A stretch of DNA of 64,000 nucleotides from Ruania halotolerans (GTDB taxonomy: Bacteria > Actinomycetota > Actinomycetes > Actinomycetales > Beutenbergiaceae): the NCBI RefSeq assembly GCF_021049285.1, contig NZ_CP088017.1:4041380-4105379 (forward strand), given 5' to 3'. Within the stretch, counting starts at the first letter, position 1, and each line of letters starts with the position of its first letter. A program made the translations under genes and the position numbers. A model generated the notes under the pieces. The model searched no databases. It was not told the origin of the DNA and worked only from the letters and a program-made list of their open reading frames with translations. Positions 10,886-35,239 of the stretch are shown in pieces.

Positions 10886-12001
10886 CTACCGCGGCGAGCG
10901 GTCACGAGCACCAGGCAGCGGACGGACGCCAGGCTCGCCGATCTGGTACCAGTACGCGACCGTCGCCACGTCGTCGCTGCGCTCGAACAGCCCGAAGTCC
11001 CAGGCCCCGATCTGCTGCAGCGTCACCCGGATCTGTTCAGCGAAGTAGATCGGGTCCGGCAGATGCCACCGGTACAGCCCGTGCATCGGCAGCGCCTCGG
11101 TGGAGAAGTCCGACGCCTTCGAGGAGTCCCGGTGCGCGTGCTGGGGGTACCCGTGGTAGGGCGCCGAGAAGGTCACGATCTCCGGTTCGCTGGACCGGCG
11201 CAGCTCGTCCTGGAATGCCCACGCACCGCCGGCATAGTCCTCCAGGCCGGTGCTGCACAGCGAGGGCAGCTCCCGATCGCCGTCCAGGTAGAACTTCACC
11301 TCTCCCTCGCCCCACCAGTAGCGGTGCAGCGAGGTGAGCCCGACGAAGGTGCCCACGTAGGTGCCAGTGCCATGGACGCCGTCGAGGATCACATGGTCCT
11401 CACCGAGGGGCGTGGTGCCGTTCGATCGGCGCCACTGAGCATGGAAGTAGCCGGCGTCGTCCCCCACCTCGTCCCCCGTGGTGTAGTCCACCTGGTAGAA
11501 GACCCCCGGCACCACGCCGCCGTGCTCGTTCACGAGCTCGATCCGAGCCCGCGATCGGAACGGCATCGGGAAGTAGCTGTTCATCCCTCCGGTGGGCGCC
11601 ACCACGATCGGCTCGGAGGTCACGAGCGCGCGGGCGGCGAACCCATTACAGAAGAAGTCACCGAGCGGTACCTCCACAGCTGGGACGTCCCTGCCGTCCC
11701 AGGTGAACCGCAGCACTAGATCCCGCAGCACGAACGGACCGGCAGCGGTCCGGTCCGGCACGGTGATCCAGATGTGCCGGATCACGCCTGGCCCGGCGAT
11801 GTCGGCGAGTACGGCGGTCTCCCCCGCGGGAAGGTCGAAAGCCGGGCTCCCCTTCCGGCCGGGCCCGAGAGCCGACGCGGCCTGCGCCGCCTGCCCAGGC
11901 GCGCCGGTGGGGTTCTCAGCATTGATGGAGTGGGACCGGACCCCACGTGGCGGGGTGGTGACGTGGTTCCACGAGAACACAGACAGCTCCTTGTCGCTCA
12001 T
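10886..12001 (-). CDS. GH172 (DUF2961) glycoside hydrolase, locus A
   Basis: This 371-residue DUF2961 protein belongs to family GH172, whose characterised members act on alpha-D-fructofuranosides (difructose dianhydride I/inulobiose) or alpha-D-arabinofuranosides. Visible motifs are GPGVIRHIWIT near residue 70, PLGDFFCNG, WWGEG and TGLEDYAGGAW. The glutamates in WWGEG and GLEDY, 22 residues apart, are the likely catalytic pair. There is no signal peptide, so it acts in the cytoplasm on an imported sugar. It overlaps the permease gene by 4 bp (ATGA) and closes the operon lacI-SBP-permease-permease-GH172. A paralogue is at 20981. Whether the bond is fructosidic or arabinosidic cannot be told from sequence alone. 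Confidence 0.88.
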   Translation of the reverse strand: MSDKELSVFSWNHVTTPPRGVRSHSINAENPTGAPGQAAQAASALGPGRKGSPAFDLPAGETAVLADIAGPGVIRHIWITVPDRTAAGPFVLRDLVLRFTWDGRDVPAVEVPLGDFFCNGFAARALVTSEPIVVAPTGGMNSYFPMPFRSRARIELVNEHGGVVPGVFYQVDYTTGDEVGDDAGYFHAQWRRSNGTTPLGEDHVILDGVHGTGTYVGTFVGLTSLHRYWWGEGEVKFYLDGDRELPSLCSTGLEDYAGGAWAFQDELRRSSEPEIVTFSAPYHGYPQHAHRDSSKASDFSTEALPMHGLYRWHLPDPIYFAEQIRVTLQQIGAWDFGLFERSDDVATVAYWYQIGEPGVRPLPGARDRSPR

Positions 12002-12840
12002 TTGATCGCACCAGCGGTCACGCCGCGGCTGAGGGTGCGCTGGAAGATGAAGAAGAAGATCAGCGTGGGCAGCAGCGAGAGCAGCGACCCGGCGTTGATC
12101 ACCGTGATGTCGATGGTGTGCTGCCCACGCAGTGTGGACAGGGCGATCGGCACCGTCTGCGAGGACGGGTCACCGAGCAGCACCAGCGGGATGTAGAACT
12201 CGTTCCACGTCCAGATGAAGAAGAACACCACGAGCACCGAGAGCGTGGGCCGCAGCACCGGGGTGATCACCTTCCACAGGATCTGGAACCGGGTGGCGCC
12301 GTCGATGGCGGCCGCCTCCCGCAGTTCCTTCGGCACCGTGCCCATCACGCTGGAGAGGATGTAGGTGCCGAACGCGGTCTGGAACACCGTGAACACGATG
12401 ATCACCGACCAGATCGTGTTGAGCGTCCCGGTGGCCTGCGCGCCGTAGAACAACGGATAGATCAACGCCTCATGCGGCAGCATGGTCGCCACCAGCAGCA
12501 GGGCAACGATCGCCGTAGAACCCTTCACCCGGCCCACGCCGATCCCGTACGAGGCGAGGAGGGCGAACACCACCCCGCCGAAGGCGACCACTGTGGAGAT
12601 GACCACGGAGTTGCCGAGCGCCACGAGGAAATCGACCCGGCCCAGGTATCCGGCGAACGCATCCAGGGTGAACTCGGCCGGCCAGGCGAGCGGACCGCGC
12701 GTGGAGTAGTCCGCCGTCGTCTTGAATGCGTTCAGCACCAGCAGGGTGAACGGGCTGAGCATGAGCAGGGCCACGGCGATGGCGCCGGCAAGCACCAAGT
12801 AGTCGCGCACATCCCGGCGGGACGTTCCGATCGCTGCCAT
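11998..12840 (-). CDS. Carbohydrate ABC transporter permease, MalG type, locus A
   Basis: This is a 280-residue inner-membrane permease with about six helices and the cytoplasmic EAA loop EAAAIDGATRFQ that docks the ATPase. The C-terminus, FQRTLSRGVTAGAIK, is typical of the CUT1 MalG partner. The start ATG shares one base with the stop of the MalF-type gene, and the end overlaps GH172 by 4 bp, so the genes are translationally coupled. With the MalF-type partner and the binding protein it should import the oligosaccharide used by GH172. No ATPase gene is nearby. Confidence 0.92.
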   Translation of the reverse strand: MAAIGTSRRDVRDYLVLAGAIAVALLMLSPFTLLVLNAFKTTADYSTRGPLAWPAEFTLDAFAGYLGRVDFLVALGNSVVISTVVAFGGVVFALLASYGIGVGRVKGSTAIVALLLVATMLPHEALIYPLFYGAQATGTLNTIWSVIIVFTVFQTAFGTYILSSVMGTVPKELREAAAIDGATRFQILWKVITPVLRPTLSVLVVFFFIWTWNEFYIPLVLLGDPSSQTVPIALSTLRGQHTIDITVINAGSLLSLLPTLIFFFIFQRTLSRGVTAGAIK

Positions 12841-13739
12841 CAGCCCGCCTCCTGTCTGTCAGCGTGCCGTTGCCAGAGCAGCAGCCCGAGCGCGACGACG
12901 AAGATCACCGCAGCCATGACGGTCGAGATGGTCGCGCCGTACCCCACCCGGGAGAGCTCGAAGAAGTTCCGGTAGGCGTAGTAGGAAGGCACCACGGTCG
13001 ATCCCTCCGGCCCGCCGGCGGTGAGGATGAGGATCGGGGCGAATACCTTCAGTGCCGCCACTGTGGCGGTGAGGGTCACCACGAAGCCTTCGGGCCGGAT
13101 CTGCGGCAGGGTGATCGCCCCGAACCGGCGGAACCACCCGGCGCCGTCCAGTGCGGCCGCCTCATGCAGCGACGGGTCGATCCGTTCCAACGCTGCCATG
13201 AAGATCACCGTCGGATAGCCGATCTGCAACCAGACCAGCACCAGCATGACGGCGTACAGCGCCAGGTCAGGATCACCCAGCCAATCGGGTGCTTCCGTCA
13301 CGCCGACCGTGCGGAGAAGGACGTTCAGGGAGCCGTCCCGACTGGCCAGGATCCAGCTCCAGATGAACCCGGCCACGGCGATCGGGAGGATCTGCGGCAG
13401 GTAGTAGCTCCCGCGCAGCACGGCGATGGCCGTCGGTCCGAACTTCCTCGCCAGATGGTCGAAGAGCACAGCGGCGAGGACCACGCCGATGATCGTGGGG
13501 ATCACCGTGACGGCCACGATCATCGCAAGGGAGTTGCCGAAGGAGTCCCAGAAGGCGCCATCGGCGAGCAGCCGGCGATAGTTCTCCAGGCCCACCCACC
13601 GCATCTCGGACTGGCCGCCGCGCCAGCGGTGCAGGCTGATCGCCACGTTGGCAACGAACGGCAGCACGATCACGGCGGCGAACAGCAGCAGAGCGGGGGC
13701 GAGGTACCACCCGTATCCGAGGTCGATGCGTCTACGCAC
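12840..13739 (-). CDS. Carbohydrate ABC transporter permease, MalF type, locus A
   Basis: This CUT1 MalF-type permease has six predicted helices, starting with YLAPALLLFAAVIVLPF, and the EAA loop EAAALDGAGWFRR. I place the start at the GTG at 13739: it follows the binding-protein stop by one base and has AGGTGG five bases upstream. A longer frame open to 13817 would overlap the binding-protein gene by 77 bp and add an unlikely Ser/Arg-rich head. This gives 299 residues. It pairs with the MalG-type permease next to it. Confidence 0.9.
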   Translation of the reverse strand: MRRRIDLGYGWYLAPALLLFAAVIVLPFVANVAISLHRWRGGQSEMRWVGLENYRRLLADGAFWDSFGNSLAMIVAVTVIPTIIGVVLAAVLFDHLARKFGPTAIAVLRGSYYLPQILPIAVAGFIWSWILASRDGSLNVLLRTVGVTEAPDWLGDPDLALYAVMLVLVWLQIGYPTVIFMAALERIDPSLHEAAALDGAGWFRRFGAITLPQIRPEGFVVTLTATVAALKVFAPILILTAGGPEGSTVVPSYYAYRNFFELSRVGYGATISTVMAAVIFVVALGLLLWQRHADRQEAG

Positions 13740-13740
13740 G

Positions 13741-15054
13741 TCAGCCACCTGAGGTGAACTCACGGCCGTCGTCGTAGAACTCCTGGAGCGCCGCGAGGTA
13801 CTCGTCGGCTGTCTCATTCCCGTTGGAGATGGTCTGCATGTGGGTCTGGATGAAGTCGAGGAACCCCGGCACCGGGTAGTCCGGGTAGAAGCTCAACCTG
13901 TCCTCGACCGCGAGCTGGTCGAATCCGGCGGTGTACTCGCGGACCAGGTCGTCGGAGATCTGCGACGTGTCGCCGGCGAGGGGCAGCCCGCCGTTCTCGC
14001 CGATGAGGTTCTGCACCTCGTCCGAGAGGGTGATGTCGATCCAGTCGTAGGCGAGGTCGACGTTCTCGGCGTTGGCAGGGATGCCCCAGAGGTGTCCGGA
14101 GGAGCCCATCACGTGCTGCGCTCCCGGCATCGTGAAGTAGCCCCACTCAAAGTCGGCGTCGGTGCGAATCCGGTCGAAGGCGCCCTGGTTCCACATGTAC
14201 ATTGCGGCCTCACCGCCGAGGAAGCTCACCTGGGCCTGTTCGTAGCTCAAGCCGCCGAGGTCCGCACCGAGGTAGCCGGCCTCGGTCCACTCCTCAAAGA
14301 TCGAGGTTCCCTCGGCCCACGGCCCGCTGGAGAAATCCACATCCTCACGCAGGAACATGAAGTCGTCGATCTGCTCACGGTCGGCGAGCGCCGAGACGAG
14401 GCTGTACCAGATCCACATCTGGTTGAAGCCCTGGCTGGTGGAGGCCGAGCTGGCGATCGGGGTGTGCCCGGCATCCTGGAGCGCGACCATCGCAGCCTCG
14501 AGCTCGTCCAGGCTCTGCGGCACCTCGATCCCGGCCTCGGCGAAGATGTCGGCGTTGTAGTACAAGGTGACGTACTCGCCGATGTTCGGAATGCCATACC
14601 ACTCGCCGGCGCCGGCGTTGCCGTTCTCGTCATACTGGGCGAAGGACGCCATCGAGCCGGTGATCACTTCGTCCCAGCCCCGGGCAGCCACCTCGTCGGT
14701 GAGAGGCAGGAGCAGACCCTGGGAGGCGAGCTGGCCACCGTCGGCGTTGCCCTTGTTGAACTCGACCACGTCGGGCACGTCGTTGCCGCCCAGGGTGATC
14801 GTCGCGTTCTGTCGCATGGCGTCGAAGCTGGTGGTCTGGTAGTCGATGGTGACGTCCGGATGCATCTCCTGGAAGAGCTCCATGGCAAGAGCCCAGCCCT
14901 GGCCTTGAGCGGAGTTGGGGTCCTCGTACTGCAGAACGGTGAAGGTGCGATCCGTTTCCTCCGCGGATCCGCCGGAGCACGCGGCGACGGCCGTCATGGA
15001 CGCCGCGGCGACTGCAGCGATCGCGACGCGGACGAAGCGTGAATGAGTGGACAT
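13741..15054 (-). CDS. Sugar-binding lipoprotein of ABC importer, locus A
   Basis: This 437-residue family-1 extracellular solute-binding protein starts with a lipoprotein signal peptide ending in the lipobox VAAC (residues 23-26, Cys26), so it is tethered outside the membrane. Aromatic and acidic patches typical of sugar binders are present (MWIWYSLVS, MYMWNQGAFDR, SSGHLWGIPANAENVDLAYDW). GGAGGG lies about 9 bases before the ATG. It is the first transport gene after lacI-A and ends one base before the MalF-type start. The ligand is unknown; the GH172 gene in the operon suggests an alpha-fructosyl or arabinosyl oligosaccharide. Confidence 0.9.
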   Translation of the reverse strand: MSTHSRFVRVAIAAVAAASMTAVAACSGGSAEETDRTFTVLQYEDPNSAQGQGWALAMELFQEMHPDVTIDYQTTSFDAMRQNATITLGGNDVPDVVEFNKGNADGGQLASQGLLLPLTDEVAARGWDEVITGSMASFAQYDENGNAGAGEWYGIPNIGEYVTLYYNADIFAEAGIEVPQSLDELEAAMVALQDAGHTPIASSASTSQGFNQMWIWYSLVSALADREQIDDFMFLREDVDFSSGPWAEGTSIFEEWTEAGYLGADLGGLSYEQAQVSFLGGEAAMYMWNQGAFDRIRTDADFEWGYFTMPGAQHVMGSSGHLWGIPANAENVDLAYDWIDITLSDEVQNLIGENGGLPLAGDTSQISDDLVREYTAGFDQLAVEDRLSFYPDYPVPGFLDFIQTHMQTISNGNETADEYLAALQEFYDDGREFTSGG

Positions 15055-15141
15055 GGTGATGTTCCCTCCATTGGGTGTGGGGTATCGACCGAACCGGTGG
15101 GTCCGGCTCGGGTGTGGTTCGCTGTGGGGGTCTTGGGCGGG

Positions 15142-16185
15142 TCAGGGGGCGGGCGACGCAGTAGCCACCGATCCTCGTTCCACGAGTGGGCATGGCATGA
15201 GGTACTCGACTCCGTCAACCGGCCCGGAGTCAGACATCCGGCGAATGGCAGCGGCGGCGGCCCACGCGCCCATCGGTCGATGCGGCAGCTGGATCGTGGT
15301 CAGGCCCGGATCGAGGGCGTCTGCTACCGCCTTCTGGTTGTCGAACCCGACCACAGAGAGCTGGTGAGGAACAGCCAAGCCGAGCCGGTTCGCCACCTGG
15401 TAGCAGGCCATAGCGAGCGAGTCCGAAAAGCAGAAGACCGCCGTCGGCCGATCGGGCCGATCCACCAATTCCCCCGCGGCCGCGGCGCCCTCGAGGGTCG
15501 ACGGGCCCGGTGCGTATCGCTCGAGTGCAGGATCCGGCGCAAGTCCCGCCTCTTGGAGAGCACGGCGGTACCCGGCTCGCCGTTGATCGGCGGCCACGAA
15601 GCGCGGATCGGTCACGCCGAGGAATCCGATCCTTCGATGACCGACCTCGATCAGATGATGAACAGCCGCGTAGGCCCCGCCGTCCTCGTCCGGCACCACC
15701 GAGTCAACGGGATGATCAGGATCGGAGTCCGCGGGCGGCTTGGCGTCCAGGAGCACCACCGGAAGGCTGCGCGGGGCGAACGGCATCTGGACCTCACGGT
15801 GGAAGTCTGCGGCGATGATCAAGGCCTCGATGTTGCGCTGCATGAGTGCCCGTACCGCTGGTGGCTGCATCACGGCGTGGTGGTCGACGTCGATGGCCAT
15901 CAGGAGATAGCCCTCGGCCCAGGCTGCCTCTTGGGCACCGCTGAGCATCTCCCCACTGAACGGGCTGCTGGCGAGACCGTCCGCGAGAAGTCCGAGGGTC
16001 TGGGACTGCTTCGTGCGCAACCCTCGCGCAAGCATGTTCGGCACATATCCGAGCTCGGCTGCCACGGCGCGAATCCGCTCGGCGACGGCAGAGTTCACCC
16101 GGCCGCTGTCACGGTCGTTGAGGACAAGAGACACAGCAGATGGCGAGACGCCGACTTGGTCGGCGATGTCCCTGAGTGTCAGCAC
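15142..16185 (-). CDS. LacI-family repressor, locus A
   Basis: With the GTG at 16185 (GAAGGAG six bases upstream) the protein has 347 residues. It begins directly with the LacI headpiece LTLRDIADQVGVSPSAVSLVLN. The hinge helix is NMLARGLR. The rest is a periplasmic-binding-protein fold that senses a sugar. The open frame extends to 16491, but that extra part would cross the operator at 16201. The gene lies 87 bp before the locus A binding-protein gene on the same strand, with no separate operator seen between them, so it probably heads the operon. The AAACGTTT site at its own promoter implies autoregulation or control by the locus B repressor. Confidence 0.9.
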   Translation of the reverse strand: MLTLRDIADQVGVSPSAVSLVLNDRDSGRVNSAVAERIRAVAAELGYVPNMLARGLRTKQSQTLGLLADGLASSPFSGEMLSGAQEAAWAEGYLLMAIDVDHHAVMQPPAVRALMQRNIEALIIAADFHREVQMPFAPRSLPVVLLDAKPPADSDPDHPVDSVVPDEDGGAYAAVHHLIEVGHRRIGFLGVTDPRFVAADQRRAGYRRALQEAGLAPDPALERYAPGPSTLEGAAAAGELVDRPDRPTAVFCFSDSLAMACYQVANRLGLAVPHQLSVVGFDNQKAVADALDPGLTTIQLPHRPMGAWAAAAAIRRMSDSGPVDGVEYLMPCPLVERGSVATASPAP

Positions 16186-16198
16186 GATGTCTCCTTCG

Positions 16199-16244
16199 TC
16201 AAACGTTTGCCGTGACCGTAGAAAGGTCAATCGTGTTGACGCAA
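16199..16244 (-). promoter_or_regulatory. Promoter and LacI operator of lacI-A / locus A
   Basis: Reading the minus strand: TTGCGT (16239-16244), an 18-bp spacer, TACGGT (16215-16220), six bases, then the palindrome AAACGTTT (16201-16208) inside GGCAAACGTTTGAC. The -10 to operator distance of six bases is identical at the locus B promoter (20802-20807). The operator would cover the transcription start, giving simple repression. Confidence 0.65.
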
Positions 16245-16444
16245 GCCCGTGATCAAGGCGTAACGTGACCGCCGTTGCCCGAGCAGATGGACGGCCATGA
16301 GGGCACTCGTCCCGGAGGGAGGCCATGTCGTCGTTGCGGGGCCCGAGCCGCGTGCCTACCGTGGTGCCAGGGACGCCGTCGTTGAGCATTCTTGAGGTGA
16401 CAGAGTGTGAGGTGCATTCCGATCGCTGCACAGCACGGCTGGCC

Positions 16445-17518
16445 TCACCCGCCCAGGGACCCTTCCGGCCTCCCGCACCCGCACGAGGCACCGTGTTCGA
16501 TCTCGGCGTTCAGGCGCACGGTGAGCGGTGGGGCGTCCGGCTGCCGCAACCGGCGCAGTACCAGCCCCATGGCCTCCCGGCCCACCGAGACGGCCGGCTG
16601 TCCGGCCGCCGTCAGCGAGGTCCGCATCAGGTCGGCATTCGGGAGCGTGTCGAAGGCGACCATCGCCACGTCCTCGGGCACCGAGAGTCCCTGGTCATCC
16701 AGCGCCCGCAGCGCCCCCACGGTCATCGGTGAGCTCGCGGTGAGCAGGGCAGTGGGCCGGTCCGCTCGAGCCATCCGGTCAGAGACCAGCCGCCTCGCGT
16801 CCTCCGCGCTCCCGTCACCCTCCCATACCAGCTCGGTGTCCACCTCGATCCCGGCCGCCGCGAGCGCCGACCGGTAACCCTCGAGCCGCTCCCGCAAGGT
16901 CGCAACCGCCAGGTCTCCGGCGACGATCCCTATCCGCCGGTGGCCCTGGTCGATCAGATGCGCCACCAGGGTGCGGGTGGCGGAGGCACCCTCCACCCCC
17001 ACCTGATCCACCCCAACGCCGTCCAACCGGTCCATCAGCACCACCGGCGTGCCCAATTCACGCGGCCGATCAACCGCCGCCGGCACACTGCCACTCGCTC
17101 GCGCGAGGATCAGAGCATCCACCCGGCGGGACTGCAGCACCTGGACCGCACGGAGCTCGGCCTGCGGATCTTCCCCGGAGTCCGCGAGCAGCAGCACGAA
17201 ACCTTCCTCGCTCGCCACCGCCTCGATGCCGGTGACCATGTCACGGAAGGCCGGTTCACCGCTGTCGGAGACCACCAGACCGATCGAATCGGTCCGCGAG
17301 CGCCGCATCGCCCGGGCCGAGGCATCCTGGGTGTACCCCGTGGCGTCGAGCGCCTTCTGCACCTTCCGTCGCGTGGCCTCGGTGACGCGCCGCGTCCCGT
17401 TCACCACATGCGAGACGGTGGAGGTCGAAACGCCGGCGGCGCGCGCGACATCGACGATCGTGGCCCGCCCCCCGTCCGGAGGCCGGTTCGCGACCGGAGT
17501 CTCTCCTGCGTCCACCAT
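16445..17518 (-). CDS. LacI-family repressor, locus B
   Basis: This is a LacI-type regulator of 357 residues from the ATG at 17518; a GTG at 17521 directly follows the permease stop. A 19-residue leader precedes the headpiece TIVDVARAAGVSTSTVSHVVNGTRRV, then the hinge and sugar-sensing domain follow. Unlike lacI-A it is the last gene of its operon (SBP-permease-permease-lacI), so it is made together with the transporter it presumably controls. The C-terminal CGCG in HGASCGCGRP is unusual. Which of the two repressors reads AAACGTTT is open; both genes lie behind that operator. Confidence 0.9.
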   Translation of the reverse strand: MVDAGETPVANRPPDGGRATIVDVARAAGVSTSTVSHVVNGTRRVTEATRRKVQKALDATGYTQDASARAMRRSRTDSIGLVVSDSGEPAFRDMVTGIEAVASEEGFVLLLADSGEDPQAELRAVQVLQSRRVDALILARASGSVPAAVDRPRELGTPVVLMDRLDGVGVDQVGVEGASATRTLVAHLIDQGHRRIGIVAGDLAVATLRERLEGYRSALAAAGIEVDTELVWEGDGSAEDARRLVSDRMARADRPTALLTASSPMTVGALRALDDQGLSVPEDVAMVAFDTLPNADLMRTSLTAAGQPAVSVGREAMGLVLRRLRQPDAPPLTVRLNAEIEHGASCGCGRPEGSLGG

Positions 17519-17521
17519 CAC

Positions 17522-18406
17522 TCAGCCCTTGACCGCACCGAACGTCATCCCTGCGACGACGTGGCGCTGAAAGACAGCGTAGAGGAGGAGCTGTGGCAGC
17601 AGGACCAGGGTGGCCGAGGCCATCATGGCCCCGTAGTCCACCGACCAGAACCCTTGGAACTGCGCCACCCCGAGGGAGATCGTGGTCATCGCCGGATCGT
17701 TGATCAGCGTGACCGCGAACGGGTACTCGTTCCACACGTAGATGATGTTGAAGATCAGCAGCGTGGCCACCACGGGCCGCATCAGCGGGAACACGATCTG
17801 CCAGGCCAGCGTCCGCAACCGTGCGCCGTCGATCACCGCGGCCTCCTCGACCTCTACCGGGAAGTCCGCCAAGAAGCCGGTGAACAGCAGCACGTTGAAT
17901 GGCAGCTGCGCGGCGATATAGGGGAGGATCAGGGCCCAGTAGGTGCCGAACAGGCCGAGCTCGATGTTCAGCCGGTACACGGGGAACAGAAGGATGTAGA
18001 CCGGGATGGCCAGACCCGCGAGTAGATAGAACCGTAGACCGTTGCGCAGCCATACCCGTGTCCACTCCATCCGGGTCAGCGCATAGGCGGCCATGTAGGC
18101 AAACACCACTCCCACCACCACGGACACACTGGCGAGGATGAAGGTGTTCTTGTACATCAGCATGAGGTTCAGCGTCTGCGTCGCCACCTCGTAATTCGCT
18201 AGGTTCAGCTCGGTGAGGTTGAGCGGGTCGCGCAGGATGTTCTCGTTCGTCTGGAACGAGAGCACCACCACCCACAGCATCGGCAGGATGAGCAGCGCCG
18301 TCACCACATATGCCACGACCGCAGCCCACCCCCGACGGCGCCCCCTGGGCCGACGAGGCACGTCACCGTGCGGAAAACGCACCTGGGTTCGGGTCGAGGT
18401 ACTCAT
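17522..18406 (-). CDS. Carbohydrate ABC transporter permease, MalG type, locus B
   Basis: This 294-residue permease has a basic N-terminal tail, about six helices and the EAA loop EEAAVIDGARLRTL. The C-terminal HVVAGMTFGAVKG is typical for CUT1 MalG partners. The start overlaps the MalF-type stop by 4 bp, and the lacI-B start follows its stop without a gap, so all three are coupled. It forms the membrane channel with the preceding permease. Confidence 0.92.
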   Translation of the reverse strand: MSTSTRTQVRFPHGDVPRRPRGRRRGWAAVVAYVVTALLILPMLWVVVLSFQTNENILRDPLNLTELNLANYEVATQTLNLMLMYKNTFILASVSVVVGVVFAYMAAYALTRMEWTRVWLRNGLRFYLLAGLAIPVYILLFPVYRLNIELGLFGTYWALILPYIAAQLPFNVLLFTGFLADFPVEVEEAAVIDGARLRTLAWQIVFPLMRPVVATLLIFNIIYVWNEYPFAVTLINDPAMTTISLGVAQFQGFWSVDYGAMMASATLVLLPQLLLYAVFQRHVVAGMTFGAVKG

Positions 18407-19278
18407 GCTGCTGTCGCCTTCCGTCGCAAAAACGCCAGGTATCCGAGCGCGACAGCCACACCCAAGACACTGGTGATCACGGCCAGGGCCATTCCGTAGC
18501 CGTAATTCTGCAGGCCGAAGGTGACGTGGTAGGTGTAGCTGACGAGCGTCTCGGACAGGTGCACCGGCCCGCCGCCGGTGAGCTGGACGACAAGCTCGAA
18601 GATCTTGAAGGAGCCGGTGATCACCAGCACCGTCGTGATCCCGATGGTCTCGCGCAACATCGGGACGGTGACGTATCGCAGGCGCTTCAGGCCGGCCGCC
18701 CCGTCCAGCTCAGCGGCTTCCATGACGTCACCGGGGAGCATCTTCAGCCCGGCGTAGAAGATCGTCATGATGAACCCGACGGTCTGCCACACGTATACCG
18801 AACCGATCGAGTACGGACTCAGCGTGGTTCCGCCGATCCACGCCGGCGGCTCGGCCACCCCGACCAGGCGCAGCAGCTCGTTGAGTAGCCCGAGGTGCGG
18901 GTCCAGGATGAACACCCAAATCAGCCCGATCAGGATCGGTGCCACCACGTTCGGGGCGAATACCATGGTGCGCAGGACCCCGGCGCCCCGGATCCGCCGG
19001 CCGAGCAGCAGTGCCAGGCCGAAGGCGCCCGGCAGGAGCAGGCACAGCGAGATGACCAGGATGATCGCCGTGTTCCGCAGCGAACTCCAGAACAACGGGT
19101 CATCGACCATTGAGGTGTAGTTCTCTGCTCCGACGATCGTGGAGGACCCGAAGGCCTTCGCGTCGGTGAAGCTCTGCAGTACCGAGTACACCACCGGGTA
19201 GGTGAAGTACAGGCTGTAGATGATCAGTGCCGGCAGCACCATCCCGGCGAGCTGCCACGGCCTGCTCAACCACCGCAC
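18403..19278 (-). CDS. Carbohydrate ABC transporter permease, MalF type, locus B
   Basis: This 291-residue CUT1 permease begins almost directly with a helix (LAGMVLPALIIYSLYFTYPVVY). It has about six helices and the EAA loop MEAAELDGAAGLKRL. It follows the binding-protein gene after 43 bp and overlaps the MalG-type gene by 4 bp. It is not closely similar to the locus A MalF-type protein, which suggests that the two importers diverged long ago or were acquired separately. Confidence 0.92.
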   Translation of the reverse strand: MRWLSRPWQLAGMVLPALIIYSLYFTYPVVYSVLQSFTDAKAFGSSTIVGAENYTSMVDDPLFWSSLRNTAIILVISLCLLLPGAFGLALLLGRRIRGAGVLRTMVFAPNVVAPILIGLIWVFILDPHLGLLNELLRLVGVAEPPAWIGGTTLSPYSIGSVYVWQTVGFIMTIFYAGLKMLPGDVMEAAELDGAAGLKRLRYVTVPMLRETIGITTVLVITGSFKIFELVVQLTGGGPVHLSETLVSYTYHVTFGLQNYGYGMALAVITSVLGVAVALGYLAFLRRKATAA

Positions 19279-19321
19279 AGGCGGCCACCTCCTCCTCGAC
19301 CTGAGAGACGTCGTCGGGCGG

Positions 19322-20680
19322 TCACTCGAAGGTGTCCTGCACGACCTGCAGCGCCTCGCCCGGGGTGAACACGCCCTGTATCACGCCGTAGATGGAGTCG
19401 TACATGGCGCTGGACTGCTCGGCGGAGATGACCAGGTCCGGCTGGGCCTCAGGGCTGGACCAGCCATCGGCATTGATCACGTCGAGCACGGAGGAGAACA
19501 CGGTCTGGGACTCGTCGACCTGCGGCTCGTAGGTGGTCACCGGGGTCTGGTCGTTGTCCACGAGGATCTGCTGGCCCGTGTCACTGTAGTAAAAGGCCAG
19601 GAAGCGCTCCACGGCGGCTGCCACCTCCTCGTCCTCCATCGCCGCGGCGCTGACCACCAGCGGTGCCGAGGGCGCATTCATGTAAAGCTGCTGGTCCCCG
19701 ACACCATCGGAGAATGTGGGTCCGGCCCAGAACGTGGTGGCCGCACCGACCGAGCTCTCCTGGATCTGCCCGGCGGCCCACACGCCGGCGTCCAGCATCG
19801 CGGCGTTACCGCTTGTGTACTCCTCGACCGCCTGCACATAGTCCTGCGTGGAGACGTTCGGGGAGAACGCGCCCGCCTCGGCGAGCTCGTCGATGTGTTC
19901 GTAGAGCCGGAGGAAGTCCTCGTTCACGTACGAGTCTTCGCCGGCGAGGATGGCATCGATCCGCTCCTCGTAGCCGTACCGGTTCAGCATCGTCAGGAAC
20001 GCCCAGACGCTGAAGGAGGTGCCATTCGCACCCTTCGCGATCGTGGTAACACCCTCGGCGGAGAGGGTCTCGGCCACGGCGAGCAGGTCCTCGAAGGTCG
20101 CCGGCTGGGCGAGCCCGTATTCGGCGAGGATGTCGGTGTTCACGAAGAATCCGGTGACCAGGCCTTGATAGGGCACGCCGTACTGCACTGGGCCACTCGA
20201 GGAGTCACTGACGTAACCGCTGAGCATGGACTCCGGGAACGATGCGCGGAGGTCGCCAGAGTCCAGCAGTGGGCCGAGGTCAGCCAGGTAGCCCTCATCG
20301 GCCATCTGCGTGGCGAGCGAGTTGTAGACCCAGAAGATCTCCGGCAGCGTCCCGGATTGCGCGGCGATCTGCATCGCCTGGTTGTGCTCGTCCACGGTCT
20401 GCCCTTCGACGTGTATCACCACGTCCGGGTTCTCCGCCATGAATGCCTGCACGATCTCGTAGGTGGCCGGGTCCTGCGCCTCGACATTGGGGTTCTGCAT
20501 GGAGAGGGTGATCTCGACGGCGCCGTCACCGGCAGGCTCACCACCGTCGGCAGAGGTCGGGTCCTCGCCGGGGACGGAGCCGCCGCAGCCGGCAAGTCCG
20601 AGCGCGAGCGCGGCTCCAGCGGCGGCTGAGCCGATGAGGGTGCGCCGCTTCATCGCGGGACGCAGGGGGTGGGTGCTCAT
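19322..20680 (-). CDS. Sugar-binding lipoprotein of ABC importer, locus B
   Basis: The solute-binding protein has 452 residues from the ATG at 20680, which has GGAG six bases upstream; an ATG at 20692 is a weaker choice. Twin basic residues (MKRRTLIGSAAAGAALALGLAGC) precede the lipobox LAGC, so a Tat-like lipoprotein export route is possible. The mature part is a family-1 sugar binder. It leads the locus B transport operon and is divergent from GH172-B, with a LacI operator at each promoter. Likely ligand: the oligosaccharide split by the GH172 and GH32 pair (inference). Confidence 0.9.
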   Translation of the reverse strand: MSTHPLRPAMKRRTLIGSAAAGAALALGLAGCGGSVPGEDPTSADGGEPAGDGAVEITLSMQNPNVEAQDPATYEIVQAFMAENPDVVIHVEGQTVDEHNQAMQIAAQSGTLPEIFWVYNSLATQMADEGYLADLGPLLDSGDLRASFPESMLSGYVSDSSSGPVQYGVPYQGLVTGFFVNTDILAEYGLAQPATFEDLLAVAETLSAEGVTTIAKGANGTSFSVWAFLTMLNRYGYEERIDAILAGEDSYVNEDFLRLYEHIDELAEAGAFSPNVSTQDYVQAVEEYTSGNAAMLDAGVWAAGQIQESSVGAATTFWAGPTFSDGVGDQQLYMNAPSAPLVVSAAAMEDEEVAAAVERFLAFYYSDTGQQILVDNDQTPVTTYEPQVDESQTVFSSVLDVINADGWSSPEAQPDLVISAEQSSAMYDSIYGVIQGVFTPGEALQVVQDTFE

Positions 20681-20787
20681 GGAAGTCTCCATTCCTCAGG
20701 GTTCCCGCGGCGGATGTGGGAGCCGGGTCAGGGTGCTCACCGTTGCCTAGACCATCGTCGGACGGCGAGAGACGGCGAGCTGTTGCG

Positions 20788-20830
20788 AAACGTTTGTCAG
20801 AACGGTAGGACGACTCGAGCGGCACGTCAA
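20788..20830 (-). promoter_or_regulatory. Promoter and LacI operator of the locus B transporter operon
   Basis: On the minus strand TTGACG (20825-20830), a 17-bp spacer, TACCGT (20802-20807), six bases, then AAACGTTT (20788-20795) in GACAAACGTTTCGC. The promoter has good spacing and the operator sits over the expected transcription start. Confidence 0.7.
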
Positions 20831-20887
20831 CCCCAGATTCTCCTGACAATCGCTTCCCCGACGATGAAGTCTGCGCACGGCGATCGG

Positions 20888-20940
20888 TTGACAGGCACCA
20901 CGCAGCCAGTCCATTCTCGCTTCATTGAAGACAAACGTTT
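20888..20940 (+). promoter_or_regulatory. Promoter and LacI operator of GH172-GH32
   Basis: TTGACA (20888-20893) has a weak -10, CATTCT (20912-20917), 18 bp downstream. AAACGTTT (20933-20940) in AGACAAACGTTTCGAC lies 15 bp further on, 40 bp before the GH172 start. It is nearly identical to the sites at 20788 and 16201, so the enzymes and the transporter should be induced together. Confidence 0.65.
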
Positions 20941-20980
20941 CGACGGGCGATCACATCGCTCGGCCGAGGAAGGGATCACC

Positions 20981-22333
20981 ATGGCAGCAGGACCTCGCGA
21001 AGGACTCCTCGCGGACATCACCCACGTGCGGCAGGCGCGCACCGGTCGTGTCTCGAGCTGGGACCAGACCGGACGCAACCGGGACAACTGGATCGTGATG
21101 CCCGGCGAGGAACGCGTACTCGCTGATCTTCAAGGACCTGGTTGCATCACGCATATCTGGATGACCCAGTCGTGCCGGCGCCAGCCCGGGCCCGGTCAGA
21201 TCGCCCCCGAGGTGGTCGGGGTGCCGATGCTGGAGATTCACAATGCCCTCGGGGTCAGTTGGGAGGTGCACGACCCGGACTACTACCGCAAGATCGTGCT
21301 GCGGATGTATTGGGACGATGCCACCACGCCCAGCGTGATCGCACCCCTCGGCGACTTCTTCGGGCTGCTCAACTCCCTCTCCGGCTCGTACGAGTCACTG
21401 CCGCTCTCGGTCTCGGCGAAGGAGCCGGAGGAGTACAGCTTCGGCGGATCCGCCGCGTTCAACTCGTGGTTCCAGATGCCGTTCGGCTCCCGGGCGCGGA
21501 TCACCGTGGAGAACCAGAACGATGTGCCGTACCTGCAGTACTTTTACATCGACTACGAGCTCTACGCCGAGTCACTCGCCGAGGACATCGCCTACTTCCA
21601 CGCCCACTACCGGCAGCAGCGGCCGTGCCACGGTTGGGGTCCGGACCTGCAGACCAATAGTGCCGAGGTGGCGACCGTCCCGCACCTATCCGCCGAGGGG
21701 AACTATGTGGCACTGGAGACCGAGGGCGCCGGCCACTACGTCGGCTGCACGCTCGCCGTCCGGCACTTCCAGGACACCTGGTGGGGTGAGGGCGACGACA
21801 TGATCTTCATCGACGACGACACCTGGCCCCCGAGCCTGCACGGCACCGGCATGGAGGATTACCTCGGGCATGCCTGGGGCATGCAGCGCAACGGGTACCT
21901 GATGAACGGGACCATTGTGCACGAGGCGGACGCCCCAGGGTTCCAGCACAGCTACCGGTTCCATCTCGTGGACCCGGTGCGGTTCTCCCGCCGTATCGCG
22001 GTGACCTTCGAGCACGGGCACGCCAACCACCTCGCCGATGACTGGTCATCGGTGGCGTACTGGTACCAGGACACGATCGCGCCCGGACTGACCATCCCGC
22101 CCGTCGAGGACCGGCTGCCGCTGCGGCCGCACCCGACGCAGGTGCACGCGAGCCTTCCCGAGCTCACCGAGGAGCAGCAGCGCGCCCGGGACGCTGCCGC
22201 GGAGCGGATGCGGACCTACGAGGCAGAACGCGATCGCGTCTGGGCAGCCCGCGCGCCGGAGATCGATGCCGCCGAACGAGGGAACACCGAGCACGCGGCC
22301 GAACTGCGGCGTCGGTGGCTGGAGGGACGATGA
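20981..22333 (+). CDS. GH172 (DUF2961) glycoside hydrolase, locus B
   Basis: This is a 450-residue DUF2961/GH172 enzyme without a signal peptide. It is longer than the locus A paralogue, mainly through a charged helical tail (about residues 390-450, rich in E, R and A). Conserved segments are GPGCITHIWMTQS, PLGDFFG, WWGEGDD (E270) and GTGMEDYLGHAWG (E292); these two glutamates are the likely catalytic pair. The ATG at 20981 has a purine-rich GAGGAAGGG upstream and follows the operator; the frame open to 20669 is only a run-through. The stop overlaps the GH32 start (ATGA). Next to a GH32 fructosidase, an alpha-fructofuranosidase or difructose dianhydride hydrolase role is most likely. Confidence 0.9.
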   Translation: MAAGPREGLLADITHVRQARTGRVSSWDQTGRNRDNWIVMPGEERVLADLQGPGCITHIWMTQSCRRQPGPGQIAPEVVGVPMLEIHNALGVSWEVHDPDYYRKIVLRMYWDDATTPSVIAPLGDFFGLLNSLSGSYESLPLSVSAKEPEEYSFGGSAAFNSWFQMPFGSRARITVENQNDVPYLQYFYIDYELYAESLAEDIAYFHAHYRQQRPCHGWGPDLQTNSAEVATVPHLSAEGNYVALETEGAGHYVGCTLAVRHFQDTWWGEGDDMIFIDDDTWPPSLHGTGMEDYLGHAWGMQRNGYLMNGTIVHEADAPGFQHSYRFHLVDPVRFSRRIAVTFEHGHANHLADDWSSVAYWYQDTIAPGLTIPPVEDRLPLRPHPTQVHASLPELTEEQQRARDAAAERMRTYEAERDRVWAARAPEIDAAERGNTEHAAELRRRWLEGR

Positions 22334-23613
22334 CAGACATAAGCACGAACGCCACAGCGCGTCCCCGGATCCACTTCACCGCGCAGGAGGGATGGATCAA
22401 CGATCCGCTCGGGCTGACCTTCCACGACGGCGTCTATCACCTGTTCTTCCAGCACGTGCCCGGGCAGGCCGAGTGGGGGCCGGACCAATCGTGGGGGCAC
22501 GCCACGTCCCCCGACCTGCTGCACTGGACCGAGCGGCCGGTGATCCTCAGCCCCGGGGACGGCGACGGCGGCGTCTGGTCGGGCTCGTTGGTGGTTCCGC
22601 CCGAGGGCGAGCCGACCATCTTTTACACGAGCGTGCGTGTCGACGACGTGCAGATCGGCACGGTACGCACGGCGCACCCGACCGATCCGCAGTGGCGCAC
22701 CTGGGAGAAGGGGCCCGAGGTCGCCCGCCTGCCTGACGAGATCGATGCTCTTGCTTACCGGGACCCACAGGTGTTCCACGACGGCGAGGAGTGGGTAATG
22801 CTGATGGGGGCCGGACTGCGGGATGGAACGGCCGTCGCGCTCGCGCACCGCTCCGACGACCTGCGCACCTGGGGGCAGGCAGAGCCGATCGCGAGCCGGC
22901 ACCGGGACGTGATGGAGCCGGTATGGCTCGGAGCTGTGTGGGAGTGCCCGCAGCTGCTTCGGGTGAACGGACGCTGGGTGCTCACCGTGTCGGTGTGGGA
23001 GCCCGAGGTGCCGTACTACGAGGCCTACCTGATCGGGGACCTGGTCGACGGCCAGTTCGTGCCCGAGCATGTCGGGCGGCTCAGCTACGGCCCTTCCTAC
23101 TACGCCGCGTCGGCCTACACCGACGCAGCCGGCGGTCCAGGCCTCATCTACTGGTTGCGAGGGGTGGACGACCCGGGCGGCACCTGGGCGAGCGCGCACT
23201 CGCTGCCGCACGCATTGCACATCGACGACGACCGGCTAATCGCCGCACCGCACGCGGCCGTCGAAGGATCCCGGATTGGTGCAGCCCAGCATGCCGAGAA
23301 CTCCGCGGTCACCAGCGGACCCGTCTGCGATGTGCTGCTGACCGTAGCGAGCCCGAGCGCACGGGGCACCCTCACCGTCGACGGCGGTCGCGCCCATGTG
23401 CTGGTGGCCGCCGGTCAGGTGGAGGTCACCACCGACGCCGGCAGCTGGTCCATGCCCGCCGGAGGCACTGAGTTGCGGCTGGTGCTGGACGGCCCGGTGC
23501 TCGAGGTCTTCGGTCCACGTGGGACGCTCGCCGTGCCGCTTGTTGCGCCGACCGAACGGGTGACCTTGGAGCTTGCGGGCGCGCTCACAGCGGATGTATG
23601 GAAGCTGGGCTGA
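22330..23613 (+). CDS. GH32 beta-fructosidase (sucrose/fructan hydrolase type)
   Basis: This GH32 enzyme of 427 residues has all three signature acids: nucleophile D25 in WINDPLG, the transition-state aspartate D145 in YRDPQV and acid/base E205 in WECPQL. A five-bladed propeller is followed by a C-terminal beta-sandwich, with MPAGGTELRLVLDGPVLEVFG typical of the family end. There is no signal peptide, so it cleaves beta-fructosyl bonds in imported sugars, releasing fructose. It overlaps GH172-B by 4 bp and should be made with it. Together they could open an alpha-linked difructose unit and then split the beta-linked product. Sucrose is a possible alternative substrate. Confidence 0.92.
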   Translation: MTDISTNATARPRIHFTAQEGWINDPLGLTFHDGVYHLFFQHVPGQAEWGPDQSWGHATSPDLLHWTERPVILSPGDGDGGVWSGSLVVPPEGEPTIFYTSVRVDDVQIGTVRTAHPTDPQWRTWEKGPEVARLPDEIDALAYRDPQVFHDGEEWVMLMGAGLRDGTAVALAHRSDDLRTWGQAEPIASRHRDVMEPVWLGAVWECPQLLRVNGRWVLTVSVWEPEVPYYEAYLIGDLVDGQFVPEHVGRLSYGPSYYAASAYTDAAGGPGLIYWLRGVDDPGGTWASAHSLPHALHIDDDRLIAAPHAAVEGSRIGAAQHAENSAVTSGPVCDVLLTVASPSARGTLTVDGGRAHVLVAAGQVEVTTDAGSWSMPAGGTELRLVLDGPVLEVFGPRGTLAVPLVAPTERVTLELAGALTADVWKLG

Positions 23614-26427: not shown

Positions 26428-26510
26428 CGTGCCGCGGAGACGCACGGACGGCGGGCCAGCCCGTGGGAAGCGCTATCCAAGCGCGCGGAAGTTTGGCAGA
26501 ATCCAGCCCT

Positions 26511-27836
26511 ATGGCCGCATCGACGCAGCACGACATCCACACCTTCAACGACAACGGCGCCTGGTGCTGGTTCCAGGACGAGCGCGCCATCATCGACCCG
26601 GAGACGAACACCTTGCTGATCGGCTCTGTGGCGGCGGCCGAGGGCCCGGGCGGTGAGCAGCGCTCGGGGAACATCGAACTCGCCGTGACCGATCTCGCCT
26701 CCGGCAGCACCGAGATCGTCGTACTGCACGAGCGCCTCGAGGCCGACGATCACAACGATCCCGCCCTGTGGATCCGCCCAGATGGCCGCTACCTGGCGAT
26801 GTACACCAAGCACAAGAGCGACAACTTCCAGCGCTGGCGCATCTCCACCCGCCCGCACGACGCAGGAGAGTGGGGCCCGGAGCAGGTCTTCGACTGGACC
26901 GAACTCACCGACGGGCGCGGCGCCACCTACTCCAACCTGCACTACCTCGCCGACGAGGGGCGCCTCTATGCCTTCGTGCGGGCGATCAACGACGACCCCT
27001 CGATCCTGATCTCCGACGACCACGGAGACACCTTCCGCTACGGCGGCAAACTGTTCACCCGCCCGAAGCTCGGGTACGTGAACGGCTACACCCGGTACGC
27101 CTCCAACGGCGACGCACCCGATGGCGCAGGTCGCATCGACCTCATCACCACCGATCACCACCCCCGCAACTACGACAACTCGATCTACCACGGTTACATC
27201 AGCGGCGGATCCCTGCACCGCAGCGATGGCGCGGTCGTGGACGAATCCGTCCTGGACCCCGAGGCACCCTCACAGGTGGAGCTGACCACACTGCTGGCCA
27301 GCGGAAGCACCCTCGACGATTCCCCGCTCACACACGCCTGGACCACAGACATCCGCCAGGGCCGGGCGGGGCAGTCCGGGCAGATCGCCGCCGTGCTCAC
27401 TGCACGGGCCAACGATGAGCCGGAGAACAGCAACTTCTCCGACCATCGATTCGTCTATGCCCGGTTCGACGGCGCGGCCTGGCAGGTCTTCCCGCTCGCC
27501 AAGGCAGGGGCGAACCTGCTCCCGCACGAGGAGGACTACACCGGCCTGGCCTCCATCGACCCCTACGATCTGGACTCGCTCTACCTCTCCGCGCCGATCG
27601 ACCCGCGCGACGGGAGCGCGTTGACCCGTCACGAGATCTTCCACGGGCGCACCTCCGATGGCGGAGCGAGCTGGGAGTGGAGCCCCATCACCGAGCACTC
27701 GACGGAAGACAACCTGCGCCCGATCGTGGTGCCCGGCGATCCGGACACCCTGGCGGTCACCTGGTTCCGCGGAACGATGACGGCGTCCCAGCACTATGAC
27801 TGCCGGGTGGTCGGGATCGTCAGTCAGCGGTCCTGA
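26511..27836 (+). CDS. BNR_4-type beta-propeller protein, possible polysaccharide lyase or hydrolase
   Basis: This 441-residue protein has no signal peptide. The N-terminus FNDNGAWCWFQDERAIID and repeats such as SDDHGDTFRYGGKLF and SDGGASWEWSP are bladed BNR/sialidase-like repeats of the BNR_4 type. Conserved HNDPALWIRPDGRYLAMYTKH and RGATYSNLHYL segments line the presumed active face. Homologous propellers act on plant or algal polysaccharide fragments, but I cannot name the reaction. I chose the ATG at 26511; a GTG at 26463 is possible, and neither has a strong ribosome site. The gene is flanked by the palindrome and putA and looks monocistronic. Confidence 0.7.
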   Translation: MAASTQHDIHTFNDNGAWCWFQDERAIIDPETNTLLIGSVAAAEGPGGEQRSGNIELAVTDLASGSTEIVVLHERLEADDHNDPALWIRPDGRYLAMYTKHKSDNFQRWRISTRPHDAGEWGPEQVFDWTELTDGRGATYSNLHYLADEGRLYAFVRAINDDPSILISDDHGDTFRYGGKLFTRPKLGYVNGYTRYASNGDAPDGAGRIDLITTDHHPRNYDNSIYHGYISGGSLHRSDGAVVDESVLDPEAPSQVELTTLLASGSTLDDSPLTHAWTTDIRQGRAGQSGQIAAVLTARANDEPENSNFSDHRFVYARFDGAAWQVFPLAKAGANLLPHEEDYTGLASIDPYDLDSLYLSAPIDPRDGSALTRHEIFHGRTSDGGASWEWSPITEHSTEDNLRPIVVPGDPDTLAVTWFRGTMTASQHYDCRVVGIVSQRS

Positions 27837-33310: not shown

Positions 33311-34288
33311 TCAGCCCTTCACTGCCCCGGCCGTCAGGCCCTGCACGATCCACTTGCTGGCCAGGGCAAACATCACCATGGTCGGCAAGATCGTCAGTAC
33401 CGCTGCTGCCGACATCGATCCCCAATCGATGTTGAACGTCGAAATGAAGCCGTTGAGCGCCGCCGGCACCGTTCGGTTCGACTCCGCGTGCATCAGCACC
33501 ACCGAGAGGAACAGCTCGTTCCACGAGTTCACGAAGTTGAAGATGAACGCTGCGATGATCCCCGGTGTCATGACGGGCACGATCACCCGGAACAGCGCCC
33601 CCAACCGGGAGCAACCGTCGATCATCGCCGCCTCCTCCAGCGCATCCGGCACGTTCTGGAAGAAGCCGCGCAGCATGATCGTGGAGAACGGGATGCTGAT
33701 CGCTACGTAGACCAGCACCAGGCCGAACTTGCGATCCACCAGACCCAGTTCGGACATCATCGAGTACAGCGGGCCGAGCGCGATGAACGCGGGGATCATC
33801 TGGGTGAGCAGGAACGCGATCAACACCGCACCCTTGGAACGGAAGTGGAACCGTGCCAGGACGTAGGCGCTCAACAGGGCGATCAGCGTGGCAGTGGCTC
33901 CCGCAGTGGTGGCGATGATTGCCGAGTTGGCCAGGAACACCCCGAAGTTGCTCTGTTCGAACAGTCCGCGATAGTTACCCAGGGACAGGTCCCCGGGCCA
34001 GTACTCCAACGGGAAGCGGCTGATCGTCCCGGGGGCCTTCAGCGAGGTGATCGCGATCCAGTACAGCGGGAACAGGGTGATCAGCAGCCATGTACCCAGC
34101 CCGACCACGCGCAGCACACCGCCAGGGGTGATCCGCCTTGGCGTCGGCCGATCGACCCCGGGCCCGGTGACGGTCGCGGCGGGCGTCAGGGACGCCGTGA
34201 GCGCCTCCTGGCCTGAACCCTGCGGTGCCTCACTCCGGTGCGCCTCGTCCCTCGGCGCCCGAACGCGAGGGCTCCTCGCGCTCATCAT
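33311..34288 (-). CDS. Carbohydrate ABC transporter permease, MalG type, locus C
   Basis: This 325-residue permease has a long Arg/Pro-rich N-terminal tail of about 55 residues, then about six helices and the EAA loop EEAAMIDGCSRLGAL. The C-terminus is IVQGLTAGAVKG. The ATG at 34288 overlaps the MalF-type stop (ATGA); the frame open to 35098 is only the shadow of the upstream gene. It ends locus C. A run of CACCCCCGCACCCCCGCACC follows the gene at about 33263-33285. Confidence 0.92.
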   Translation of the reverse strand: MMSARSPRVRAPRDEAHRSEAPQGSGQEALTASLTPAATVTGPGVDRPTPRRITPGGVLRVVGLGTWLLITLFPLYWIAITSLKAPGTISRFPLEYWPGDLSLGNYRGLFEQSNFGVFLANSAIIATTAGATATLIALLSAYVLARFHFRSKGAVLIAFLLTQMIPAFIALGPLYSMMSELGLVDRKFGLVLVYVAISIPFSTIMLRGFFQNVPDALEEAAMIDGCSRLGALFRVIVPVMTPGIIAAFIFNFVNSWNELFLSVVLMHAESNRTVPAALNGFISTFNIDWGSMSAAAVLTILPTMVMFALASKWIVQGLTAGAVKG

Positions 34289-35235
34289 TGGTTGTCCGCC
34301 TTCCGGATCGCCAGCAGGTAGAACGCGCAGAAGACAAGCAGGAAGCCCACCACGCTGAGCCCGATGGCGCTGGCCAGACCGTAGTTGCCCTGCTGTGTGT
34401 AGTTGATCATCCAGGTGGTGATGATGTGGGTGCGGTTCGCCGGCCCACCGCCGGTCATCGCGTAGATGACGTCCGGGAAGTTGAAGATCCAGATGATCCG
34501 CAACAGCACGGTCAGCAACAGCGTCATCGCGATGGTCGGGATGATGATCGAGAACAGGGTCCGTGCCTTGCCGGCACCGTCGATACTGGCGGCCTCGAGC
34601 ATTTCCTCGGGCACGGACTGCAGCGCCGCGAGGATCATGATTGCGAAGAACGTCACGCCGTACCAGATGTTCGCCACGATCACTGCGATCAAGGCGAGCG
34701 TGGGGTCGGCGAGCCACGGGATGGGCGCATCGATCAGCCCGACTTTGCCGAGCAGGTCGTTGACCACGCCGAACTCCGCGTTGAACATCCACCGGAACAG
34801 CATCCCGATGAGGAATCCCGAGACGGCCCAGGGGAAGAACACCAGCGCTTGATACACGCCACGGAACCGGAATCGTTTGCGCAGTGCCAGCGCGAGTGCG
34901 AACCCGATGAGAAGCTGCGGAACCAAAGATCCGAGCACCCAGACCACCGAGTTCCGCAGGACGGTCGGAAAGACGGGGTCGGCCAGGATGGTCCTGAAGT
35001 TGTCGAGCCCCACGAACGGTGTGGACGTCAGGTCCCAGAGATTCCAATCCTGGAACGCCATCGTCGCACCGCGGAGCATGGGGTAGTAGGTGAACCATCC
35101 GACGAACACGATCGCCGGGGCCAGGAACGCCAGGATGGTGAGCCCGTGGCGAGCACGGAAGGGCCGCCGTCGGTCCTCGCCCGCCCCGCCGGCAGAACCG
35201 GCGGGGCGCTTGAGGGGAGAGGTCTGGGTGGTCAC
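34285..35235 (-). CDS. Carbohydrate ABC transporter permease, MalF type, locus C
   Basis: This 316-residue CUT1 permease has six helices after a polar tail (MTTQTSPLKRPAGSAGG) and the EAA loop LEAASIDGAGKARTL. It starts four bases after the binding-protein stop and overlaps the MalG-type gene by 4 bp, so the operon is tightly packed. Its partners are the flanking genes; no ATPase is present. Confidence 0.92.
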   Translation of the reverse strand: MTTQTSPLKRPAGSAGGAGEDRRRPFRARHGLTILAFLAPAIVFVGWFTYYPMLRGATMAFQDWNLWDLTSTPFVGLDNFRTILADPVFPTVLRNSVVWVLGSLVPQLLIGFALALALRKRFRFRGVYQALVFFPWAVSGFLIGMLFRWMFNAEFGVVNDLLGKVGLIDAPIPWLADPTLALIAVIVANIWYGVTFFAIMILAALQSVPEEMLEAASIDGAGKARTLFSIIIPTIAMTLLLTVLLRIIWIFNFPDVIYAMTGGGPANRTHIITTWMINYTQQGNYGLASAIGLSVVGFLLVFCAFYLLAIRKADNQ

Positions 35236-35239
35236 CAGG

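Follow-up and report, generated by a model that had tools for sequence, protein, structure and literature searches.

Adjoining GH172 sugar-uptake loci in Ruania halotolerans are predicted to answer to separate LacI-family repressors

Within a 64,000-nucleotide window of the Ruania halotolerans genome (contig NZ_CP088017.1 of assembly GCF_021049285.1, positions 4,041,380 to 4,105,379), the stretch from 10886 to 23613 carries two sets of sugar-importer genes, here called locus A and locus B, each with a LacI-family regulator and a glycoside hydrolase of family GH172. An earlier note on this DNA had read both as wired to one LacI operator and merged into one regulon. The comparison described here argues instead that these are most probably two sugar-uptake loci, independent and each under local control, that are neighbours by chance, and the three operators sharing a core motif are predicted to bind different repressors. 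The site before lacI-A (s1) stands in the slot used by A operons and has one clean A-type half-flank, the two sites of locus B (s2 and s3) carry the B-type flank, and residue 20 of the recognition helix differs between the two regulators.

The locus is tiled by eleven genes for solute-binding proteins (SBPs), permeases, regulators and hydrolases, apparently forming three transcription units. Operon A, on the minus strand, runs lacI-A, SBP-A, two permease genes and GH172-A; operon B, on the same strand and directly upstream of A, runs SBP-B, two permease genes and lacI-B; and a divergent unit on the plus strand consists of GH172-B followed by GH32. Domain scans confirmed this content, with its coordinates and order, as the note had given it (two lacI, two GH172 and one GH32 gene), and found in both LacI-A and LacI-B a LacI helix-turn-helix together with a periplasmic-binding-protein-like domain (PF00356, PF13377, PF00532). 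The features, in coordinates of the window, are:

10886 to 12001, minus strand: GH172-A (PF11175, 279 bits), in a clade beside ExoMA1-type exo-alpha-D-arabinofuranosidases
11998 to 12840, minus strand: ATP-binding cassette (ABC) permease A2 (PF00528)
12840 to 13817, minus strand: ABC permease A1 (PF00528)
13741 to 15054, minus strand: solute-binding protein A, SBP-A (PF01547)
15142 to 16185, minus strand: LacI-A, first gene of operon A, GTG start (PF00356 and Peripla_BP), recognition helix VSPSAVSLVLN
16198 to 16211, minus strand: putative operator O2 of LacI-A, identical with site s1, GGCAAACGTTTGAC, in a slot shared with relatives of the A operon
16226 to 16240, minus strand: putative operator O1 of LacI-A, GTCAACACGATTGAC, within the promoter spacer, its 13-mer recurring upstream of LacI-A homologues
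16215 to 16244, minus strand: putative promoter TTGCGT-N18-TACGGT, read by eye, with like spacing in relatives
16445 to 17521, minus strand: LacI-B, last gene of operon B (PF00356), recognition helix VSTSTVSHVVN
17522 to 18406, minus strand: ABC permease B2 (PF00528)
18403 to 19278, minus strand: ABC permease B1 (NCBIfam permease models, under their curated cut-offs)
19322 to 20692, minus strand: solute-binding protein B, SBP-B (PF01547)
20785 to 20798, no strand assigned: predicted LacI-B operator s2, GCGAAACGTTTGTC, upstream of SBP-B
20930 to 20943, no strand assigned: predicted LacI-B operator s3, GACAAACGTTTCGA, upstream of GH172-B
20981 to 22333, plus strand: GH172-B, of the alphaFFase1 type (difructose dianhydride I synthase/hydrolase type; PF11175, 267 bits; 7v1v, 541 bits)
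22315 to 23613, plus strand: GH32, beta-fructofuranosidase-like (PF00251, 195 bits), the nearest solved structure being the beta-fructosidase 1uyp

Exactly three copies of the motif AAACGTTT lie in the window (at 16201, 20788 and 20933), where 0.03 are expected and none of 100 shuffles reaches three. These are the cores of what the note had called nearly identical operators at lacI-A, SBP-B and GH172-B; the shared cores are there, but the identity is limited to eight bases and the flanks differ, the half-sites reading GGCAAAC/GTCAAAC at lacI-A, GCGAAAC/GACAAAC at SBP-B and GACAAAC/TCGAAAC at GH172-B. The whole 4.27 Mb genome holds ten such cores, and among the remaining seven, four are at most 0.8 kb away from another LacI-like gene, one is about 1.2 kb away, and two have none within the 11 kb examined. 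The same core reportedly also serves PurR and RbsR of E. coli. Central-CG palindromes are conserved upstream of their own operons for the homologues of both LacI-A and LacI-B, and since a central CG is widespread in the motifs of LacI regulators (1173 of 1303 regulators have it, and nearly 90% of those studied are local; Ravcheev et al., PMC4052901), a shared core is expected and would reflect the operator plan of the family.

The sequence around the core separates the sites by locus. Upstream of LacI-A homologues a plan recurs in which TTGCGT and another hexamer flank a spacer with GTCAACNCGWTTGAC (O1) and a GTCAAWCGWTTGAC-like site (O2) follows, and s1 occupies the O2 slot of these stand-alone A operons. 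Within 250 bp upstream, a 14-mer with at most two mismatches from GTCAANCGNTTGAC is present for 8 of the ten further LacI-A homologues (of the ten, 8 stand before an A operon), compared with 15 of 2200 base-shuffled upstream regions, the window's included, and the O1 13-mer is found in 6 of the 10. In G904 the promoter is nearly that of the window and is accompanied by O1 and by an O2 that contains AAACGTTT within LacI-A flanks (ATCAAACGTTTGAC). Sites of B loci elsewhere mostly pair TCGAAAC with GACAAAC or CGCAAAC halves, and s2 and s3 are similar. Matrices for the two classes were built without the window, the A matrix from 15 sites in 8 genomes (including G492, where the regulator is not before an A operon, and with no sites from G274 and G375), and they score s1 at 21.1 bits as A and 17.0 as B, s2 at 7.8 and 21.6, and s3 at 4.8 and 22.8. 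With one genome left out at a time, the class was called correctly for 15 of 15 A sites and 42 of 43 B sites, or 14 of 15 and 42 of 43 from the flanks alone, although the sites are related by descent and these counts are not independent trials. A single operator class for the three sites is rejected by reason of slot and flanks, s1 being A-type by slot and by score (with a small margin) and s2 and s3 B-type.

The division in the flanks is matched by one in the repressors. Residue 20 of the LacI recognition helix has been linked to base 6 of the half-site by Camas et al. (PMC2978694), where the link is given for Arg-20 with G; the pairings of Leu with T and of His with a base other than T are observations of the present analysis. 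Leu-20 is found in all 10 LacI-A homologues and His-20 in all 32 readable LacI-B-like matches of at least 43% in B loci, paralogues included (one of 33 matches was unreadable, and 22 of 23 B loci contribute). At base 6, T stands in 29 of 30 half-sites of class A as against 1 of 86 of class B. Gene anatomy, conservation, operator class and residue 20 are read directly in the sequence, where the two classes part by residue 20 together with base 6; binding and repression are predicted from them. Even central-CG palindromes, tandem sites, autoregulation and the residue 20 to base 6 link are all features of the local, autoregulating LacI repressors already described (PMC4052901; PMC2978694), and the window differs only in that two such systems adjoin.

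Across related genomes, A-type and B-type loci were found apart, each with its own operator class. GH172-A was searched in 24 genomes of the family and 396 of the order, LacI-A in 396 genomes of the order and 394 of the class (the top five candidates being scored per genome, so that misses are possible), and SBP-A in four families (249, 47, 170 and 168 genomes). The SBP-permease-permease-GH172 core of locus A was recovered in 10 other genomes (G049, G274, G388, G331, G988, G904, G862, G926, G1047 and G173), four further families of the order having the stand-alone operon, and in 8 of the 10 it is headed by a LacI-A homologue (38 to 57%). No B locus was seen in the 20 kb read around each of the ten cores, where matches to GH172-B reached at most 34%. 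Searches of open-licence papers brought up none describing a stand-alone operon of the GH172-A clade, and we know of no assayed member of this clade. In a separate case (L201, genome G492), a LacI-A homologue (51%) that has operators of the A type is found close to an alphaFFase1-type GH172 gene and GH32-like genes rather than an A operon; LacI-A-like regulators thus also accompany fructoside genes.

Locus B belongs to a known kind. The best match of GH172-B is alphaFFase1 of Bifidobacterium dentium (7v1v; 541 bits and 52% identity, the next match scoring 189 bits), with which it groups at a support of 99/97 in the GH172 tree, and it retains the catalytic residues E270/E291 and D292 and the +1-subsite residues E85 and K147, the checked active-site residues being conserved except for N272, which is D. 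GH172-B is by type an alphaFFase1 enzyme, for which interconversion of inulobiose and difructose dianhydride I is predicted. The alphaFFase1 gene shares its operon with LacI, GH32 and ABC transporter genes (BBDE_2039-2043; PMC8605356), the same kinds of gene as in locus B; the window differs in that its enzyme pair is transcribed away from the importer/lacI operon, with a control region in common, and in that a second GH172 locus adjoins. Among the best 80 of 497 loci retrieved with GH172-B (neighbours being mapped in 54 of the 80), GH172-B identity is at least 70% in 23, and in all 23 AAACGTTT occurs within 450 bp upstream of the lacI-B, SBP-B or GH172-B homologue, while none contains a match to SBP-A or GH172-A of at least 45% identity. 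The gene order of B in the window is also that of two Cellulomonas loci (L005 and L006). PfkB-type kinase genes closely follow GH32 in 6 of the 23 (L007, L017, L023, L025, L026 and L056), which fits fructose as the product; no such gene was seen in this position in the window. In Naasia aerilata (L056, 10001-12521) the GH172-B and GH32 homologues each seem split over two frames, and the later active-site columns of GH172-B are unreadable there owing to the broken reading frame.

For GH172-A the closest solved structure is ExoMA1 (8ic8; 262 bits and 48% identity, alphaFFase1 scoring 149 bits), an exo-alpha-D-arabinofuranosidase from a D-arabinan locus of Microbacterium arabinogalactanolyticum (PMC10509167) in which the same +1 residues are missing. 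In a maximum-likelihood tree of 82 of 118 extracted proteins and 4 solved ones (L061-L084 and 12 loci judged redundant were left out, and the program warned that several long branches meet), the A and B sides split at 100/99, and GH172-A falls within a 16-row clade (92/92) that lies next to the ExoMA1 clade on the same side but is separate from it. All 24 GH172-B rows keep E85 and K147; none of the 16 GH172-A-clade rows, the window's included, has either, and all 16 have Phe at Tyr187. Mutants of alphaFFase1 at E85 and K147 retain activity on p-nitrophenyl alpha-D-arabinofuranoside and less than 5% of that on inulobiose (PMC8605356). As GH172-B keeps both +1-subsite residues and GH172-A neither, the two loci probably use different sugars, the substrates being predicted from active-site residues that are themselves plain in the alignment. 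The sugar of locus A is, in our judgement, somewhat better than evenly likely to be a small alpha-D-arabinofuranoside, an alpha-D-fructofuranoside with a different aglycone being the weaker candidate. GH183 and GH116 gave no match in the window or in the ten A-core loci (one query each, at 1e-8), and membership of A in a D-arabinan locus is rejected on the ground that neither was found near A. Elsewhere, in L053, roughly 2 kb separate a GH172-A-clade gene from a GH116 gene. The same genome also contains, at 2.45 Mb (L202, C1:2444000-2463999), a D-arabinan-type locus with GH116, a permease, an SBP, GH183 (DUF4185), a third GH172 and a LacI, where AAACGTTT lies in an AGT/ACT flank.

Clade is, at the same time, a weak guide to substrate: alphaFFase1 acts on alpha-D-arabinofuranosides as well as alpha-D-fructofuranosides (PMC8605356), and DgGH172c, on the alphaFFase1 side of the tree, is one of three GH172 enzymes, encoded in one locus of Dysgonomonas gadei, that all degrade D-arabinan (PMC10115798). 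Both loci might serve one sugar pool, for example the mixed alpha-fructosides of caramelised sugar, with GH172-A taking aglycones that GH172-B cannot. This alternative, conceivable but doubtful, draws further on GH172 genes from opposite sides of the tree, at most 10 kb apart, that turn up in 7 loci of the best 80 of 497 (L022, L049, L050, L051, L052, L053 and L057), with both in one gene run in L051; a member of the GH172-A clade proper is present only in L053, and the four Bacillota loci (L050-L052 and L057) probably count as one event. It sits poorly with the differing importers and LacIs of the window, with the A core standing alone in 10 other genomes, and with the missing +1 subsite of GH172-A. 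The recurrence of paired GH172s hints at some shared use, not at shared control. The suggestion that such a double locus is undescribed is only partly borne out, given these seven loci and the D. gadei locus PUL42 in print (PMC10115798), which likewise has several GH172 genes from both sides of the tree; PUL42 is one Bacteroidota D-arabinan locus with GH183, whereas the window has two importer operons with separate LacIs. In Blautia schinkii (L051, 9980-19320), two overlapping AAACGTTT sites precede the run with the two opposite-side GH172s, which also comprises one importer, an 895-residue protein without a Pfam match, and a LacI.

On the side of regulation, several observations besides the shared descent of the sites weigh against two strictly separate systems. 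The LacI-A homologues of G274 and G375 lack a GTCAANCGNTTGAC-like 14-mer, and the A cores of G926 and G173 carry different LacIs. Four genomic sites are within one mismatch of TCAAWCGWTTGA, namely s1 and those at bases 60629, 81605 and 3184020, and LacI-A may have further targets beyond its own operon. The B score of s1 (17.0 bits) exceeds those of all 15 other A sites (at most 11.2) and of 1 of 43 B sites, and its lead of A over B shrinks to 2.2 bits once the sites are made non-redundant. Between lacI-B and lacI-A (16186-16444) no terminator was found, one terminator-like match lying inside lacI-A, and a 285-base stretch folds worse than 196 of 200 shuffles (z +1.86). The B-likeness of s1, the small margin and the lack of a recognised terminator make weak cross-repression or read-through between the loci possible.

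It is accordingly conceivable, though improbable, that the repressors are separate but the loci partly coupled, s1 having drifted to a hybrid also bound by LacI-B, or transcripts of B reading through into A, or both. In favour, the site joins a clean LacI-A half (GTCAAAC) to GGCAAAC, which occurs among B sites (3 of 86 half-sites) and makes s1 the most B-like of the A-type sites. Against it, s1 lacks a CGAAAC half (present in 36 of 43 B sites), and its T6 half has a counterpart in 1 of 86 B half-sites. The 259-bp gap without a recognisable terminator counts for less in that terminators of high-GC actinobacteria are often missed by simple scans. In its fullest form, and slightly less probable still, s1 would be a hybrid operator of a LacI-A half and a half tolerable to LacI-B, placing A under double control after the loci adjoined and aided by read-through from B; locus A would then open fully only with its own sugar and the sugar of locus B both present, and a regulatory merger would have been caught in progress. 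One merged regulon, with all three operators served by a single LacI or by either of the two alike, is very unlikely: the recurrence of one 8-base core at three promoters, well beyond chance, and the B-like character of s1 would fit it, but the s1 slot is found where no B locus is nearby, flanks and residue 20 divide by locus, and the core is not diagnostic, given the other genomic copies near further LacI-like genes.

Counterparts in the two loci, whether transport proteins, GH172s or LacIs, are only 25 to 33% identical and therefore no product of recent duplication. The note's view of two loci rather than a recent duplicate, separate in origin and now side by side, is upheld by these values, by the separate clades of the GH172s and by the occurrence of A-type and B-type loci apart elsewhere. 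Its description of both importer sets as complete fails on the ATPase: among the eleven genes no ATP-binding subunit is encoded for either set (the genome was not searched for one), and an ATPase from elsewhere probably serves both, in what we take to be an MsiK-type arrangement. No RNA element in the window reached Rfam gathering scores, and a sigma-70 consensus scan of 15000-21100 found nothing, the promoters named here being read by eye. A few kilobases past the locus, 26463-27836 on the plus strand encodes a BNR_4 (PF15892) repeat protein, possibly another glycan enzyme, and 33311-37168 on the minus strand resembles by eye a further sugar importer set of SBP and permeases.

Under the favoured reading of two locally controlled loci, locus B would import alpha-fructosides (difructose dianhydride I or inulobiose, for example), GH172-B would open the alpha-fructofuranosyl bond and GH32 would split inulobiose to fructose, with LacI-B repressing the locus at s2 and s3. 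Locus A would import a different small furanoside, most likely an alpha-D-arabinofuranoside, for cleavage by GH172-A, and LacI-A would repress its own operon at O1 and O2 (the latter being s1) inside its promoter. A common LacI core motif alone does not make a regulon, and it is the flanks together with residue 20 that tell neighbouring repressors apart. The locus is otherwise ordinary in kind, and its most useful lead is the little-studied operon type of locus A, which, built around its own GH172 clade, could widen the range of sugars known for GH172.

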